A model generated the notes under the pieces. The model worked only from the letters and a program-made list of their open reading frames with translations, was not told the DNA's origin and searched no databases. From positions 1 to 21,094 of the IMG/VR virus record IMGVR_UViG_3300034110_000273: a DNA stretch of 21,094 nucleotides; one strand, given 5' to 3'. This document shows positions 3,062-20,737 of the stretch, piece after piece (position 1 is the first letter of the stretch; each line of letters starts with the position of its first letter). This DNA is from a virus. The position numbers were made by a program, and so were the translations under genes.

Positions 3062-3433
3062 TTATTTGTCTGAATATAATTTTGGTATCTTAATCTTCTT
3101 TCTTACTTCTTGATATTTCTCCATATAATATGGCACTACTTCAACATCGTTTGCGAAAGTGTTTATGCCATGTAAAACCGTAGTTCTATCTCTATTAAAG
3201 TATGGGGCAATTTGGGCGGATTTTTGTTTATAGTGAACATGAAGGATATAAAAGCACATATTTCGTGCAAGTACATTCTCTCTATATCTACCTTTATTTG
3301 TAATCATAATAGGCCTTATCTTAAAAACATTAGCCGCATGATTAATTACATTGTCTACTATTGCCTTATCTACCTCATAGTTTTTTGGTTTTAGTAAAGA
3401 CTTGCGTGTCATTCTAAATTTCGCTATAGTCAT
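3062..3433 (-). CDS. DnaA domain IV-like DNA-binding protein (stand-alone)
   Basis: A 123-aa protein. Residues about 44-90 match the C-terminal DNA-binding domain of DnaA: KGRYRENVLARNMCFYIL corresponds to the helix with the VxAR motif, and RDRTTVLHGINTF (81-93) is a close match to the DnaA signature RDHTTVLHAxxK, which reads the DnaA box. There is no AAA+ ATPase part: the protein starts only about 45 residues before this domain. Such stand-alone domains occur in phages and may compete with or mimic host DnaA, bind phage origin sites or act as regulators. It sits in the same operon as the helicase and initiator. Its last 20 coding bases do not reach the next gene; its own start overlaps the upstream 66-aa gene by 20 bases. 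Confidence 0.72.
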   Translation of the reverse strand: MTIAKFRMTRKSLLKPKNYEVDKAIVDNVINHAANVFKIRPIMITNKGRYRENVLARNMCFYILHVHYKQKSAQIAPYFNRDRTTVLHGINTFANDVEVVPYYMEKYQEVRKKIKIPKLYSDK

Positions 3434-4330: not shown

Positions 4331-4468
4331 TTATTGGTTTTTTGGTGTTGTTGTTGTTTCTTCGTTGGTTTCTTCTTCATCTTCCCAGTCGCAGTACTCT
4401 AAGCACTCTGGACATAGGTTAATCTCTGGGTAGTTGGTATGTGCTCCACAGCAAGTAGAAAATGGCAT
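4331..4468 (-). CDS. 45-aa zinc-ribbon-like protein
   Basis: An ATG at 4468-4466 opens a 45-aa frame. It has C6, C7 and H10 in STCCGAHTNYP, then CPECLEYC (C19, C22, C26), followed by a very acidic stretch (DWEDEEE) and a Thr-rich tail. CC...CxxC pairs of this spacing are typical of tiny zinc-ribbon proteins common in Bacteroidota phages and plasmids. The start is 2 bases after the stop of the 68-aa gene and the stop is one base before the next start, so it fits exactly between neighbours. Function unknown. Confidence 0.6.
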   Translation of the reverse strand: MPFSTCCGAHTNYPEINLCPECLEYCDWEDEEETNEETTTTPKNQ

Positions 4469-4470
4469 AT

Positions 4471-4677
4471 CTAAGGATTTTTGGTGTTTAGTTTAGATAA
4501 TCGGCTGAAATAAGTTTTTGGGTCTCCTATTTTAGCTTTGCTCATGTTTGACTCATACTCCAATGGGTGTATGCAGTTTTTTGTCTCGTGACTGTAGTAG
4601 GCTTGTTCGCCTTTGTCAATTAGAATGCCAGTTATGGCACACTTCATTGGATGGGTTAAGGTAATTAATTGGTGCAT
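4471..4677 (-). CDS. Small putative zinc-binding protein, unknown
   Basis: A 68-aa basic protein with MKCAITGILIDKGEQAYYSH followed shortly by NCIHPLEYE. The C-x-x-TG-x-x-I-x-KGE pattern with a later C and H (C13, H30, C35, H37) resembles a small zinc finger of the kind that follows a beta-hairpin; metal binding is inferred. It is the first gene after the 344-bp non-coding gap with the 10-bp repeats, so those repeats would be part of its leader or lie between it and the 5022 gene. Leader: AACCAAAACAAATG type. Confidence 0.5.
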   Translation of the reverse strand: MHQLITLTHPMKCAITGILIDKGEQAYYSHETKNCIHPLEYESNMSKAKIGDPKTYFSRLSKLNTKNP

Positions 4678-4754
4678 TTGTTTTGGTTTAGTTTGGTAAA
4701 ATTAAAGGTTTTTTGTTATAATTTCATTTATTTTAGTTAATTTATTGTTAAAAA

Positions 4755-4859
4755 GGTTTTTGTCACAGATTTTTGTCATGGATTTTTAGCAGGTTTTTGG
4801 ATAGGGTTTTTGGCAGATTTTTGGCTACAAAAGATTTTTGGCGGTGCTGGATTTTTGGC
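4755..4859 (-). repeat. Eight copies of a 10-bp motif GRTTTTTGGC in a non-coding gap
   Basis: The gap 4678-5021 has no convincing gene. Within it the motif (minus strand GCCAAAAAYC) recurs at 4755, 4768, 4781, 4792, 4805, 4816, 4833 and 4850, with steps 13, 13, 11, 13, 11, 17 and 17 bp. The last three copies are identical (GATTTTTGGC). Irregular, non-triplet spacing argues against a coding repeat, and the units are too short and closely spaced for a CRISPR array. The core CCAAAAA resembles the A/C-rich boxes seen before many early genes. It could be a protein-binding array, a second origin element or a leader element. The rest of the gap (4860-5021) shows nothing clear. Confidence 0.65.
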
Positions 4860-5021
4860 ACTCATTAGTGTATTAAATAGCTTATTTAGTCAGCTTTTAC
4901 CGATATGCAAGGGCAAAGCATAGCTAAAATGCTATTAAAGGCACTTTTAAGGCTTAAATTTGGCTTATCTTATTTGGATAGTATAAAGATACCAACCGCA
5001 AAGAAAGTGGCTAAAAACGTC

Positions 5022-5228
5022 TTATTTTGCTAAATATTCTCTCCACCCTTGAGAGTGGTCTCTGTTTTGTTCCCACTCTATATCCGAAATAACGTCCTCT
5101 ATCTCCTCGTTTGTTATCTTATTGCTATTGTCATGGCAACAAATAGTACAAAAGATTGCATCACCAACGTATAAAACAAGCTCGTTTTTATGCTCGTTTA
5201 AATAGTAGCTGTCAATTTTAAAGCTCAT
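5022..5228 (-). CDS. Small acidic protein, unknown
   Basis: A 68-aa acidic protein with a beta-like N-terminal half (YYLNEHKNELVLYVGDAIFC), a CTICC cluster (Cys near residues 27, 30, 31), then an acidic helix (NEEIEDVISDIEWEQ) and a conserved-looking ending DHSQGWREYLAK. Not assigned to a family. It stands alone between two non-coding stretches (4678-5021 and 5229-5307). Leader: AACCAAAATCTAACACA before the ATG. Confidence 0.5.
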   Translation of the reverse strand: MSFKIDSYYLNEHKNELVLYVGDAIFCTICCHDNSNKITNEEIEDVISDIEWEQNRDHSQGWREYLAK

Positions 5229-5250
5229 TGTGTTAGATTTTGGTTTGTAC

Positions 5251-5293
5251 GGGTAAGCGGGGGAACTTACTCCGTTTCGGGGAATTTTACCCC
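5251..5293. repeat. Competing inverted repeats between two early genes
   Basis: GGGTAAG at 5251-5257 can pair either with CTTAC at 5266-5270 (5-bp stem) or, as GGGTAA, with TTACCC at 5287-5292. A third short hairpin, GGGG at 5279-5282 with CCCC at 5290-5293, excludes the second pairing. On the minus-strand transcript this lies between the 297-aa gene and the 68-aa gene. There is no T tract, so it is not a clear intrinsic terminator; an attenuator or processing site is possible. Confidence 0.3.
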
Positions 5294-5307
5294 ATCATCA
5301 GCAAGCC

Positions 5308-6795: not shown

Positions 6796-6910
6796 TATAC
6801 ATTTTATAATGTATATACTTTATATAATATATACAATATATAATATAATACTTATTGTATTATATATTATATAATGAATACTAAAATAAATAATGTATAT
6901 TATATTATAT
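6796..6910. other. Very AT-rich palindromic control region (possible unwinding element)
   Basis: Almost only A and T. It contains a perfect 8-bp inverted repeat with 4-base loop at 6796-6815 (TATACATT/AATGTATA) and a 9-bp inverted repeat with 5-base loop at 6843-6865 (ATATAATAC/GTATTATAT). It lies in the divergent gap 6653-7246 between leftward and rightward genes. Such DNA is typical of promoters, origins or both. The remaining part, 6926-7209, shows no convincing gene; it holds a short C-rich patch near 7110-7122. Confidence 0.5.
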
Positions 6911-7209
6911 TGGGACTACTTTACCAAAGTATGTTAGCCCTTAATTGTGTGTCGGTTGTTATGTTCCGTAAATGGTAGGGTAACAAATTGTATGTATAAA
7001 TATAGTACCAATTACAGCCCAATTAGTACCTAATTTAACATAATGGTAATTATAAGACAATTCGACTACTGAATATCAATCGTTTATGTATGTTAATTTA
7101 TACCACTATACCCCCTACCCCTTTCATTCGTGTAATCAATGTTACAACGCCAATGTGCCCTTCACATTTTTGATATAAAACATTGTTTTCACCAATTTTA
7201 ACTTTTGTA

Positions 7210-15318: not shown

Positions 15319-15785
15319 TGTCATTTACTATAAATAAAACAGCAAGTGTTACTAACCTATCAAAAAGGTTAAAAGAGGCACCATTTTTAGTTACTCAACA
15401 AGTTCAGAAGATAATCAATGAATCTGTATTAGAAATAGAAAGCAAAGCAAGGGCAAGAGCACCATTAGGGAAAGTAAATGGAGGTAAATTAAAGGCTTCT
15501 ATATATAGCACTCCTTATACAATGAATGCAGGAGCAAAAGTGGGTTCAAAAGGATATATGGGTAGAAAGTCTAATTATTCTCCTTTTGTAGAGTTTGGTA
15601 CTGGTAATGATTTTCAGATTCCAGTGTATAGAAACCTAAGCATGAACAAACTTGAGGGCTATGCACAGACGTTTAAACGGAGTAATGGAAATTTAGTAAA
15701 TTTGCCCCATAGACCATTCTTATTCAACTCGGCTTCAGAAGAACTATATAAAATGGTTAATAAAATAAAAAAAATTAAAATATAA
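15318..15785 (+). CDS. HK97 gp10-like tail-completion protein
   Basis: A 155-aa protein with the gp10 family layout: helix QQVQKIINESVLEIESKARARAP (residues 27-49), LKASIYSTP, KVGSKGYMG and YSPFVEFGTG (86-95), then LPHRPFLFNSASEELYKMVNKI at the end. Y-x-x-x-VEFGTG and the R-P-F ending are diagnostic. It takes part in joining head and tail. TAATG overlaps before and after; the giant fibre gene follows directly. Confidence 0.87.
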   Translation: MSFTINKTASVTNLSKRLKEAPFLVTQQVQKIINESVLEIESKARARAPLGKVNGGKLKASIYSTPYTMNAGAKVGSKGYMGRKSNYSPFVEFGTGNDFQIPVYRNLSMNKLEGYAQTFKRSNGNLVNLPHRPFLFNSASEELYKMVNKIKKIKI

Positions 15786-18700
15786 TGGCTACTCTTCAAG
15801 GTAAAGCGGTAAAAAATACATATAGACAAGTACTACAGATTGGTGCTAATAATGTTGGAGTAAGTGGTACTTTACAGCCAGTTCAAGATGGTGCAGGGGT
15901 AAACACTGCTTTATCTCTTTCTACTTTAGCTGCAACTGTTAATGGTGATTTAACTATTACTGGCGACTTGATTATTACTGGTGGTGGCTTACAGATTAAA
16001 GACCTTATCGATGATACTGTAGCAGCATTGATTCAAAATGGTACTGGAATTACATGGACTTATAATGATGGTGCTGCAACCTTAACTGGTAACTTTACTG
16101 GAACTACAAGCGTTGTACCAGAAGGTAGCAATTTATACTATACTCAAGGTAGATTTGATTCAGCTTTCGCTGCTAAGAGCACAACAAACTTGGCAGAAGG
16201 AACGAATCTTTATTTTACAGAAGCAAGAGGTAATGCAAACTTTGCAACTAACCTTGCGGCAAGTGATACAAATGATTTAGCAGAAGGTTCTACTAATCTT
16301 TATTACACTAACGCAAGAGCAAGAACTGCCTTAAGCGTAACTGCTGGAACTGGTCTTTCTTACGATAACACAACTGGTGTTTTTAACTTAGCTGCTATTC
16401 CAAACGCAAGTTTAACTAATAGCTCAATAACAATCAATGGTCAAGCGGTATCATTAGGTGGTACAGTTACTTTGACTACTACAAACATTGCTGAAGGAAC
16501 TAATTTATATTGGACTACTGCAAGAGGTAATGCTAATTTTGCAACTAATTTAGCTGCTTCTACTACAACTAACTTAGCAGAGGGCACCAACCTATATTAC
16601 ACTCAAGCGAGATTTGATACTGCTTTTAGCAATAAGAGTACAACTAATTTAGCTGAAGGAACTAACCTTTACTATACACAAACAAGGTTCAATAATGCTT
16701 TAGCTGCAAAAACTACAACAGATTTAGCAGAAGGCACAAACTTATACTATACTGATGCTCGTGCAAGACTTGCATTATCATCATCTGCAACTGGATTATC
16801 TTATGCTAACAATAGTGGTGTATTTAGCTTAACTGCTGGTTATGCGATTCCTACTACGGTTAAATTAGGTGAATACGATATAGCTTACAATCGTTCTATC
16901 GTATCTGCTGCAGTAACTGGTACATCAACAAAGACTTTAAGCCTAACTCAACAAGATGCTAACGTAATCACAGCAACTTGGACTGACCAAGGTATCACAA
17001 CAATAAACGGAACTGCAAATCAAATTGCAGCTACAACTGTAGGTAATACTACAACACTTGCATTTACTAATGACGTTACAATGCCAAACAACTTAGTTGT
17101 AAGTGGTAACTTAACTATAAATGGTACTGCAACTTATGTAAACACAGAATCAATATCTTCTAAAGACCCATTGTTTGAGGTAGCTAATACTAACAACACA
17201 ACAGATGCGGTTGACATTGGATATTATGGTAGATACTATGATTCTGTTCAAGAAAGAGTAGAGTTTACTGGATTATTCAGAGATGCTTCTGATGCTGGTA
17301 AGTTTAAAATATTTACTGGTTTAGTAGATGAGCCTACAAACGTAGTTAACACTACTGGAACTGGTTATACAGTTGCAACTTTAGTTGCTAACGTAGATGG
17401 TAACTTAAATGGTACAGCAAACGCTGCAAACATCTTATCTACTGCAAGAACAATAGCTGCAAGTGGAGATGCTACATGGTCAGTTAGCTTTAATGGCTCT
17501 GCAAACGTATCATCTGCCTTAACTTTAGCTAATACTGGAGTTACTGCAACAACTTACGGAACTTCTACTGCTGTGCCTACAATCGCTGTAGATAGCAAAG
17601 GCAGAATCACAAGTGCTTCTAATACAAACATTACTTTCCCAGTTACAACAGTTAACGGATTTGCTGGAACAGTAGTTTTAACAACATCAGATGTTGCTGA
17701 GGGAACGAATCAATACTTTACTACAGCAAGAGCACAAGCTGCTATAACTGGTGGTGCATCAAGCGTAGTAACTGCTAACTTAACTGCATCAAGAGCATTG
17801 GTTTCTGATGGTAGTGGTAAGATTGCAGCAAGTGCGACTACAACAACTACAGAGATAGGTTATTTAGCTGGTGTTACAAGTGCTATACAGACTCAGCTTA
17901 ATGGTAAGTTAAATTTAACTGGTGGTACTTTGACTGGCGGATTAATAGGAACTACTGGTAGCTTCTCAAGTAGTGGTAGTGGAGATACTTTCACTATTGG
18001 CCATACAAGCGGAAGTGGCATAGCTCTAAACATTACTAAAAGTGGTAACGGAGAAGGATTATATATAAACAAAGCAAGTGGTAGTGGTAACGCTGCTACA
18101 ATCATAGGTACTTTAAACGCAACTACTTTAGTTAAGAGTGGTGGTACAGCATCTCAGTTTTTAATGGCGGATGGTAGCGTTAATACTGCAGTTTTACCAA
18201 GTGGTGCTTATCTACCTTTAGCTGGTGGTACACTTACTGGTGCTTTAAGTGGTACAAGTGCTACATTTAGCGGTCAAGTTAAAACGGGAAGTTCTGGTAT
18301 ACAATTTAGTGCACAATCTGGAGGAAGTACTTATGATATAGGTTCAAATGCAGTAGTTGGTTCATCAATGTATATTTATAATAGCATTGGTCAATATTTA
18401 TTTACAATGGCTCCTACTGGTACTGCTGCATTCTCAAGTACATTGATGGTTAATGGCTCTACTGTTTCAAATGAAGGATTAAGCGTACAATACAATCAAG
18501 CTAAAACATTTACGACTCAAACGGCAGTATCAAGATGGCATTCAAACGAAGCAACTGGCTCTCAATTTAAACTTAACTTATTTGCTATTGGTAATGCAAC
18601 GGGTTCATCAAGAGTCTTTAAATTTCAAACATCTAATGAAGGTGTAGCAAATGATGGTATAATTGCTTTACAACCTGATGGTGGCAATGTTGGAATCGGA

Positions 18701-19483
18701 ACGGTTATTCCAAGTGCTAATCTTCATGTTAGTAGTAGTGCAGATACTGGTATAGTTATAAATTCAAGTGCAGGTGCATATACTGGTTATTTAAATATTC
18801 ATAGTGCAGGTGGTGGAGCATCTGTGATTAGAGGCATAGGCGGTACACCATTTTTATTTGAGGTAGGCGGAAGCGAACGAATCAGAATCACATCGGGGGG
18901 TAATTTATTAATAAATAATACAAGTACAGTAGGTAGTAAATTAATTGTAAAAGGTGATAGTACAAATAATACTGGATTTGCAGCTATTTTTTGGGATTCA
19001 AGTTCAAATGATTTATTTTATTTAAGAAATGATGGATTAGTAAACACTGGTTCAAGACCAGCTTCACCTTATAATAATACAAATGCAGTTGTTCCTAACT
19101 TAGTAGTTAGTTCAAGTGGAACACTAGAAAGGTCTGTTGCTTCAAGTAAAAGATTTAAAGAAAATATTTCAGATTGGAATGAAAATGGATTAGAAACAAT
19201 TTTAGCTTTAAAGCCAAGAACATTTACATATAAAGCTGATTATTATAAAAATCCAGAATTAGAAATGTTGGGTCTTATAGCAGAAGAAGTAGCAGAAGTT
19301 TCTCCATTCTTAGCAGACTTCGAAAATCAAGATAGAACTGGTCAAGTAGAAAACGTAAGATATGCTAATATTGTAGTTCCTTTGATTAAAGCAGTTCAAG
19401 AACTTAAATCTGAAAAAGATGTACAATTAGCAGAATTAAGAGCACAAATAGAAGAATTAAAAGCATTGATTGCAGCTAAATAA
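15785..19483 (+). CDS. Large fibre protein with S74 intramolecular chaperone
   Basis: A 1232-aa trimeric-fibre-type protein. Residues 1-about 110 are a small-residue beta-rich attachment region. Residues 111-330 hold seven EGTNLYYT-type repeats, with an eighth at 639-646. The middle is Thr/Ser/Gly/Ala-rich beta structure with GGTASQFLMADGS and AYLPLAGGTLTGAL segments common in Bacteroidota phage fibres, then IRITSGGNLLIN near residue 1036. Residues about 1118-1232 are a Peptidase_S74 chaperone: ASSKRFKENI (S1120 as likely cleavage nucleophile), LALKPRTFTYK, LGLIAEEV and a terminal coiled coil. This domain trimerises the fibre and then cuts itself off. Unusually it lies between gp10-like and tail-terminator genes, so a head, collar or neck fibre is as likely as a tail fibre. 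A receptor-binding role is inferred. Confidence 0.9.
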   Translation: MATLQGKAVKNTYRQVLQIGANNVGVSGTLQPVQDGAGVNTALSLSTLAATVNGDLTITGDLIITGGGLQIKDLIDDTVAALIQNGTGITWTYNDGAATLTGNFTGTTSVVPEGSNLYYTQGRFDSAFAAKSTTNLAEGTNLYFTEARGNANFATNLAASDTNDLAEGSTNLYYTNARARTALSVTAGTGLSYDNTTGVFNLAAIPNASLTNSSITINGQAVSLGGTVTLTTTNIAEGTNLYWTTARGNANFATNLAASTTTNLAEGTNLYYTQARFDTAFSNKSTTNLAEGTNLYYTQTRFNNALAAKTTTDLAEGTNLYYTDARARLALSSSATGLSYANNSGVFSLTAGYAIPTTVKLGEYDIAYNRSIVSAAVTGTSTKTLSLTQQDANVITATWTDQGITTINGTANQIAATTVGNTTTLAFTNDVTMPNNLVVSGNLTINGTATYVNTESISSKDPLFEVANTNNTTDAVDIGYYGRYYDSVQERVEFTGLFRDASDAGKFKIFTGLVDEPTNVVNTTGTGYTVATLVANVDGNLNGTANAANILSTARTIAASGDATWSVSFNGSANVSSALTLANTGVTATTYGTSTAVPTIAVDSKGRITSASNTNITFPVTTVNGFAGTVVLTTSDVAEGTNQYFTTARAQAAITGGASSVVTANLTASRALVSDGSGKIAASATTTTTEIGYLAGVTSAIQTQLNGKLNLTGGTLTGGLIGTTGSFSSSGSGDTFTIGHTSGSGIALNITKSGNGEGLYINKASGSGNAATIIGTLNATTLVKSGGTASQFLMADGSVNTAVLPSGAYLPLAGGTLTGALSGTSATFSGQVKTGSSGIQFSAQSGGSTYDIGSNAVVGSSMYIYNSIGQYLFTMAPTGTAAFSSTLMVNGSTVSNEGLSVQYNQAKTFTTQTAVSRWHSNEATGSQFKLNLFAIGNATGSSRVFKFQTSNEGVANDGIIALQPDGGNVGIGTVIPSANLHVSSSADTGIVINSSAGAYTGYLNIHSAGGGASVIRGIGGTPFLFEVGGSERIRITSGGNLLINNTSTVGSKLIVKGDSTNNTGFAAIFWDSSSNDLFYLRNDGLVNTGSRPASPYNNTNAVVPNLVVSSSGTLERSVASSKRFKENISDWNENGLETILALKPRTFTYKADYYKNPELEMLGLIAEEVAEVSPFLADFENQDRTGQVENVRYANIVVPLIKAVQELKSEKDVQLAELRAQIEELKALIAAK
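16121..16753 (+). repeat. Seven-fold coding repeat in the fibre gene
   Basis: Seven units around EGTNLYYT (residues 113, 138, 167, 237, 266, 291 and 316) followed by xAR or xxRF and an Ala-rich segment; an eighth is at 17699. The units are similar at protein level but diverged in codons, so they are old, not a recent slippage product. Confidence 0.85.
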
Positions 19484-20104: not shown

Positions 20105-20737
20105 ATGTACTTATATAAGATACTGAACAAGAATACTGGGAAGGCTTATATCGGACAAACAATAAATAAGCCAGAGGTAAGGTTTGGTTACCATACTCAA
20201 AGGCTAAAGAAAGGTACTCACGACAACCAGTACCTTCAGCGTTCTTTTAATAAACATGGCATAGATTCCTTTATGTTCTATACCATCTTAAAAACTGATG
20301 ACTTAGAAAGTCTTAATCTTTACGAAGAGCAGTTCATTAAGATTCTAAGAGCAACAGATAGGAACTTCGGATATAACATTAGAGCAGGTGGTGCTAATAG
20401 TAAATTATCAGAAGAGCATAAAAGAAAGATAGGATTAGCAAGTATAGGCAGAAGACAGACAGAAGCAAATAAAAAAGCATTATCTGAAAGAAGCAAAGGG
20501 AATACATGGGGAAGATTGACAAAAGGCAAGATTGTAAATGATGACTCTAAAAAGAAGATGTCAGAATCTGCAAAACTAAGAGGGAATGACAACCTTAAAA
20601 AGCCATGTATCGTTTATACGGATAATGGTACATTTGTTGGAGAATTTGAGAGTAGATTAGAGGCAAGTGTGAAGATGGGAATAAGTTATGGTCACTTTAA
20701 AAGACTAAGAAGAACAAATAAGATTATAATTAAATAA
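20105..20737 (+). CDS. GIY-YIG homing endonuclease
   Basis: A 210-aa protein. The catalytic domain opens MYLYKILNKNTGKAYIGQT (residues 1-19: a LYK...AYIGQT form of GIY-YIG), with R27 in EVRFGYH and an acidic E74 (YEEQFI) as likely catalytic residues. Residues about 98-165 hold repeated NUMOD3-type elements (LSEEHKRKIGLASIGRRQT and KKKMSESAKLRGN), and the tail (EASVKMGISYGHFKRL) is a helix-turn-helix-like DNA-binding segment. It is a free-standing homing endonuclease, a selfish gene that cuts related genomes lacking it. It interrupts the usual tail terminator-major tail protein pair, starting one base after the terminator gene's stop. Confidence 0.93.
   Translation: MYLYKILNKNTGKAYIGQTINKPEVRFGYHTQRLKKGTHDNQYLQRSFNKHGIDSFMFYTILKTDDLESLNLYEEQFIKILRATDRNFGYNIRAGGANSKLSEEHKRKIGLASIGRRQTEANKKALSERSKGNTWGRLTKGKIVNDDSKKKMSESAKLRGNDNLKKPCIVYTDNGTFVGEFESRLEASVKMGISYGHFKRLRRTNKIIIK

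Follow-up and report, generated by a model that had tools for sequence, protein, structure and literature searches.

Three kinds of described system come close to the element reported here. Iteron origins (lambda O, plasmid) are recognized as direct repeats at a conserved non-coding position beside replication genes, spaced so as to lie on one helical face and changing with their initiator, and DnaA-box clusters are found at oriC and datA. The third kind is the rut site, the loading site of the transcription terminator Rho (lambda tR1), for which the published rules are C>G across 78 nt with a C every 11-13 nt (PMC6407284); Rho itself has YC-binding clefts (PMC12350095). Here, we report an array of eight short repeats at positions 4755-4859 of a 21,094-base virus record from IMG/VR (the window, i.e., the whole stretch of DNA analysed). 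We tentatively read the array as an RNA-level Rho-loading element that would bound leftward early transcription.

In the left part of the window, the early genes lie on the - strand (their direction of transcription is what we call leftward) and encode a DnaB N-terminus, a Rep with HTH_36, a DnaA domain IV that stands alone and small unassigned proteins; the right part contains the packaging and structural genes, on the + strand. The Rep/initiator protein (166-765, - strand), in which HTH_36 is found, resembles replication initiation families. The stand-alone DnaA domain IV (Bac_DnaA_C) protein is encoded at 3062-3433 (- strand) with the AAA+ domain absent, and its matches among named phages are few and distant (Polaribacter P12002L, Pelagibacter HTVC034P, others). 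Between the early and late genes, the divergent intergenic region contains nested palindromes in very AT-rich DNA (6814-6911). On the structural side there is a large tail-like protein with numerous TTNLAEGTNLYYT repeats (15785-19483) and, amid the structural genes, an ORF at 20105-20737 whose N-terminus presumably resembles a GIY-YIG homing endonuclease. The phages carrying the array are uncultured and probably infect Bacteroidota, the host phylum being suggested by the nearest named-phage terminases (Bacteroides and Flavobacterium phages, about 35-37% identity) and by Bacteroidota-like leaders and promoters. Terminase searches of 791 Flavobacteriales/Bacteroidia genomes gave best matches of only 39% and 47% and no host, and among the named phages searched there was neither a DNA match to the array region nor a close relative.

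The array lies in a 344-bp gap (4678-5021) within the leftward early operon, flanked by two same-strand ORFs: a conserved 68-aa gene with no assigned function (4471-4677, - strand) directly after it in the operon direction and another 68-aa gene (5022-5228, - strand) directly before it, the latter position being taken by other genes in many relatives. The earlier note had described the gap as non-coding and had named a translated product as the alternative explanation; each frame of the gap contains 5-10 stops, which rules such a product out. All eight copies have the same orientation, with + strand starts at 4755, 4768, 4781, 4792, 4805, 4816, 4833, and 4850, i.e., steps of 13, 13, 11, 13, 11, 17, and 17, with identical sequence in the last three; positions, copy number, and step sizes are as first noted. 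The repeat GRTTTTTGGC, as it had been written, is real: four of the eight copies match it exactly and four with one mismatch. If one mismatch is tolerated, 12 matches occur in the window (mean 3.2 and maximum 6 in 100 shuffles), and clusters of at least five copies did not occur in any of 300 first-order Markov shuffles. Its final GGC, however, is not conserved as such in relatives. On the - strand, the copies read [CT]AAAAA[CT][CT], and across relatives the conserved unit on this early-operon strand is V-[C, rarely T]-AAAAA-Y-Y-Y: the base before the unit is almost never T, A5 is invariant save for A6 variants, and the third position after the A-run is a pyrimidine in about 98% of copies.

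Across the arrays, the steps are mostly 11, 13, and 17 within a full range of 9-37, leaving spacers of 1 to about 30 nt. Odd steps greatly outnumber even ones among distinct neighbouring pairs (218:24 in window-type phages and 75:22 in the second lineage described below, counts that are inflated by kinship), and this excess extends across nearly the whole step range. The best period among those tested is about 12. Coherence at 10.5 bp, the helical repeat, is 0.348 versus 0.351 for random steps in the window lineage and 0.247 versus 0.361 in the second lineage. The idea that the spacers form hairpins is not supported, as pairing within them is not above that of shuffles, except weakly in long spacers, and Rfam models gave no match to positions 4400-5300 up to E = 1.

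On the downstream side in the operon direction, the next gene is preceded by an AT-rich leader (4678-4754, - strand), in which TAATTTTA, at about 4697-4704 on the same strand, is a -7 candidate of Bacteroidota type, judged against the consensus from PMC6847099; the counterpart in L003 reads TTTG-N20-TAATTTTA. The promoter score below the arrays is only slightly above shuffles, i.e., the -7 candidate is weak. The upstream segment (4860-5021, - strand) is alike in the closest relatives (TTTAGCTATGCTTTGCC..GCATATCGGTAAAAGCTGACTAAA) and is replaced by a different, palindrome-rich sequence in more distant ones. A CCAAAA core that the array was thought to share with a leader box of many early genes did not hold up as a specific link. 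Translation leaders in Bacteroidota have adenines at -14 to -11 (PMC6847099), and the similarity is that of such an ordinary A-rich leader; the array unit is invariant in ways these leaders are not, and the arrays of the second lineage lie where no leader exists, which also argues against the link.

Relatives, all of them metagenomic fragments, were gathered by neighbouring proteins or by terminase, never by the array. When the 297-aa protein and the DnaA-domain protein served as baits, 75/75 loci reaching the gap (some contigs counted twice) contained four or more clustered copies. When the terminase was the bait, 30 contigs extended over the DnaA-domain gene, each of them with the array (30/30), and the terminase-bait contigs that lack the array end before the DnaA-domain region. 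The search in relatives that the earlier note had proposed thus finds the array in every close relative covering the gap, and for this reason the array must have some function. The strict three-copy pattern, in the long contigs tested, occurs at a single location where it is present. Genes have been inserted directly after the array in L004, L005, and L008 and between two array parts in L062/L378, which makes this border of early and replication genes a hot spot for insertions. Polaribacter P12002L and Pelagibacter HTVC034P, the DnaA-domain phages named above, contain no such cluster. A scan of the genome collection for prophage or host arrays returned, among the matches listed, only unrelated tandem repeats, mostly of 11-13 bp. 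At L276:6713-6941 and other Flavobacterium genome loci there are tandem 13-bp repeats with CAAAAAYC in up to 18 copies, and these look unrelated to the phage array.

The second lineage, the prim-pol phages, was reached via a scan for three spaced copies (among the matches listed) and a prim-pol helicase search; the set is defined by one bait. Their terminases are 61-69% identical to that of the window, and their replication module differs from the window's, consisting of prim-pol and then the DnaA-domain gene (dnaA_C), both rightward. The array is located either between prim-pol and dnaA_C or 3' of dnaA_C, with CAAAAA always on the strand opposite to dnaA_C, and with respect to the terminase and the leftward early genes it is oriented as in the window. 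The array is missing from about half of the prim-pol phages. An intrinsic terminator is absent in 13 of the 16 phages with the array 3' of dnaA_C and present in 11 of the 14 with the array 5' of it (Fisher p 0.003, ignoring kinship).

We consider the array to be a cis-acting element at the border between early genes and replication module, one strand of which would be read by a host factor, Rho being our first choice. The nascent leftward RNA would then carry (V)CAAAAA-YYY repeated 5-12 times with unstructured A-runs, and a pyrimidine-C step per 9-13 (17) nt would make a near-ideal Rho-loading (rut) track. In window-type phages, such an element could make the expression of the replication genes conditional, in the position that tR1 has in lambda; the leftward early transcript of many prim-pol phages would be stopped there before reaching dnaA_C and prim-pol. 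Transcription through the array, Rho binding, and termination are all predictions from sequence, to be distinguished from the array's conservation, motif, orientation, spacing, and low sense-strand structure, which are observed. Of 14 arrays tested, 11 show the regular-C pattern of the rut rules. All tested arrays contain more C than G, yet several members show an equal C excess at many other loci, and the excess is unremarkable in L391 and L428, which speaks against Rho. The A-runs are unpaired at 86% in sense RNA versus 41% in antisense; against the same reading, spacer-shuffled arrays are even less structured than the real ones, and a few arrays fold well as RNA. Further support for Rho loading comes from other observations: all relatives covering the gap have the array, its orientation to the leftward early genes is constant despite different replication modules, steps of 11 and 13 dominate without a 10.5-bp phase, the third base after the A-run is nearly always a pyrimidine, a host reader would be in line with the lack of a tracking phage protein family and the variable DnaA-domain recognition residues, and the arrays 3' of dnaA_C mostly sit where no intrinsic terminator was found. 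The rut fit is good for window-type phages and for these 3' arrays; about half of the prim-pol arrays lie behind an intrinsic terminator, opposite to the dnaA_C transcript, and so may lack transcription in the needed direction. To our knowledge, Rho needs no invariant A5, which is a point against it. The gene starts 4-6 nt past the last copy in L004, L005, and L008 are awkward for a terminator, and the odd-numbered spacing is left unexplained by Rho loading. We favour this reading only weakly, because of how the copies are spaced and oriented and because helical phase is lacking, and it is nearly tied with a DNA-level role near the origin.

According to that possible explanation, which we rate only slightly lower, the array is a homotypic cluster of DNA sites near the origin, bound as duplex or as fork single strand by a host or phage initiation factor, where it would aid loading or priming while separate iterons serve as the primary origin. 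Nearly all prim-pol arrays adjoin dnaA_C, on either side and whatever the transcription direction, and they lie in or near a gap with origin-like iterons and a TTGATWATCAA palindrome; neither the side of the putative origin on which the array lies nor its strand polarity differs between the two lineages. The near invariance of A5, A6 variants apart, fits DNA sites as well, and the arrays 5' of dnaA_C, behind a terminator, are probably untranscribed in the direction that an RNA reading needs. As in iteron origins, the copies are direct repeats at a conserved non-coding position beside replication genes; the spacing, however, does not keep them on one helical face (no coherence at 10.5 bp, hence no duplex phasing), and the motif is constant although the Rep, prim-pol, and DnaA-domain proteins differ or diverge. 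Both lineages also have better origin iterons elsewhere. The linker region of rep contains a 20-nt palindrome (GGTAAA..TTTACC) in three copies spaced by steps of 22-23 bp (407-471), about 4.3 kb from the array and kept at the DNA level in relatives down to about 57% Rep protein identity, a layout known from the lambda O gene. Other short repeats (ATCGCGTACC, GACGTTACC, GTGGAACA, others), often around the TTGATWATCAA palindrome, occur at the 3' end of prim-pol with or without the array, i.e., also in the half of the prim-pol phages that lack it; their iteron sequence varies from phage to phage (L173, L204, L225, L227, L436-L501). The rep and prim-pol iterons are the more plausible primary origins, and because they are better candidates, the array is probably not the primary origin itself; the second origin element that the earlier note had suggested is no more than possible. 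The constant presence of the DnaA-domain protein (77/77 contigs compared, with and without the array) also fits a role near the origin, but its recognition helices vary (RDHTT, RDRTT, SDHTT, QHHTS, CHHAS, others) while the array motif is unchanged, and the recognition stretch is identical in L461, which has the array, and L500, which does not. No phage protein family tracks the array among the 77 contigs compared. We therefore rejected a phage-coded reader; the absence of a tracking family and the variable recognition residues point to a conserved host reader, and a slowly evolving host factor is the simplest candidate.

A homotypic operator or titration array, through which a transcription regulator or nucleoid protein controls the adjacent genes, appears unlikely to us. 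It would account for an invariant site of 8-10 bp in arrays of differing copy number and spacing, such as loose operator clusters have, and some downstream leaders, e.g., those in L003 and L018, contain CAAAAACTT again between a -33-like and a -7-like box; no phage gene family co-occurs with the array, however, except genes also found without it, promoter-like scores next to the arrays exceed those of Markov shuffles by only about 1-3 s.d., and for the arrays 3' of dnaA_C there is no obvious promoter that they could control. Bending by phased A-tracts is very improbable: A5/A6 runs at 11-bp steps are its classic ingredients, but neither lineage exceeds random steps in its coherence at 10.5 bp, and DNA curvature is thereby largely refuted. 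The array is not CRISPR-like either, as had been noted before, since CRISPR arrays have near-identical repeats of at least 20 bp with unique spacers of constant length, and here a unit of 8-10 bp is separated by spacers of 1 to about 30 nt. A terminase pac site also seems not to fit, as no TerS-type protein of the prim-pol kind turned up in the window lineage, and phages that have the array share a TerS family with phages that do not. DnaA boxes are likewise dismissed, the repeats not matching TTATNCACA and the window not being enriched in such boxes.

Phages of this group are common in IMG/VR, and they share a decision point, marked by an element that is kept universally at a single locus even where the replication module has been exchanged. 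Should the array load Rho, it would provide a natural rut consensus of unusual clarity and, with it, a way to study how Bacteroidota use Rho; should its role lie in replication, it would represent a part of an origin whose evolution is not tied to that of the phage initiator.

Compared with the known systems, the array shares with DnaA-box clusters a DnaA-domain-IV protein encoded nearby, whose gene is flanked by arrays in some phages, but its motif does not resemble TTATCCACA. Like iteron origins, it is built of direct repeats, lies in a gap close to replication genes and is bordered by AT-rich DNA; unlike them, it has a unit of only about 9-10 bp at steps of 9-37 without helical phase, shares its genomes with other iterons better suited to the origin role, and is absent from half of the prim-pol relatives. 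In contrast to rut sites, it is made of a near-invariant CAAAAA-YYY unit, its C>G excess is not always outstanding, and some arrays apparently lie outside leftward transcripts, termination being here a prediction only. Like lambda tR1, it would yield a leftward, C-containing, and poorly structured RNA with pyrimidine-C steps every 9-13 nt, and it sits between early and replication genes. It is conceivable, if rather less than probable, that these traits together define an undescribed class of phage cis-element, i.e., a homotypic odd-step CAAAAA-YYY array that a conserved host factor would recognize in single-stranded form, as RNA or as fork DNA, and that has stayed at the border of early and replication genes despite module exchange.
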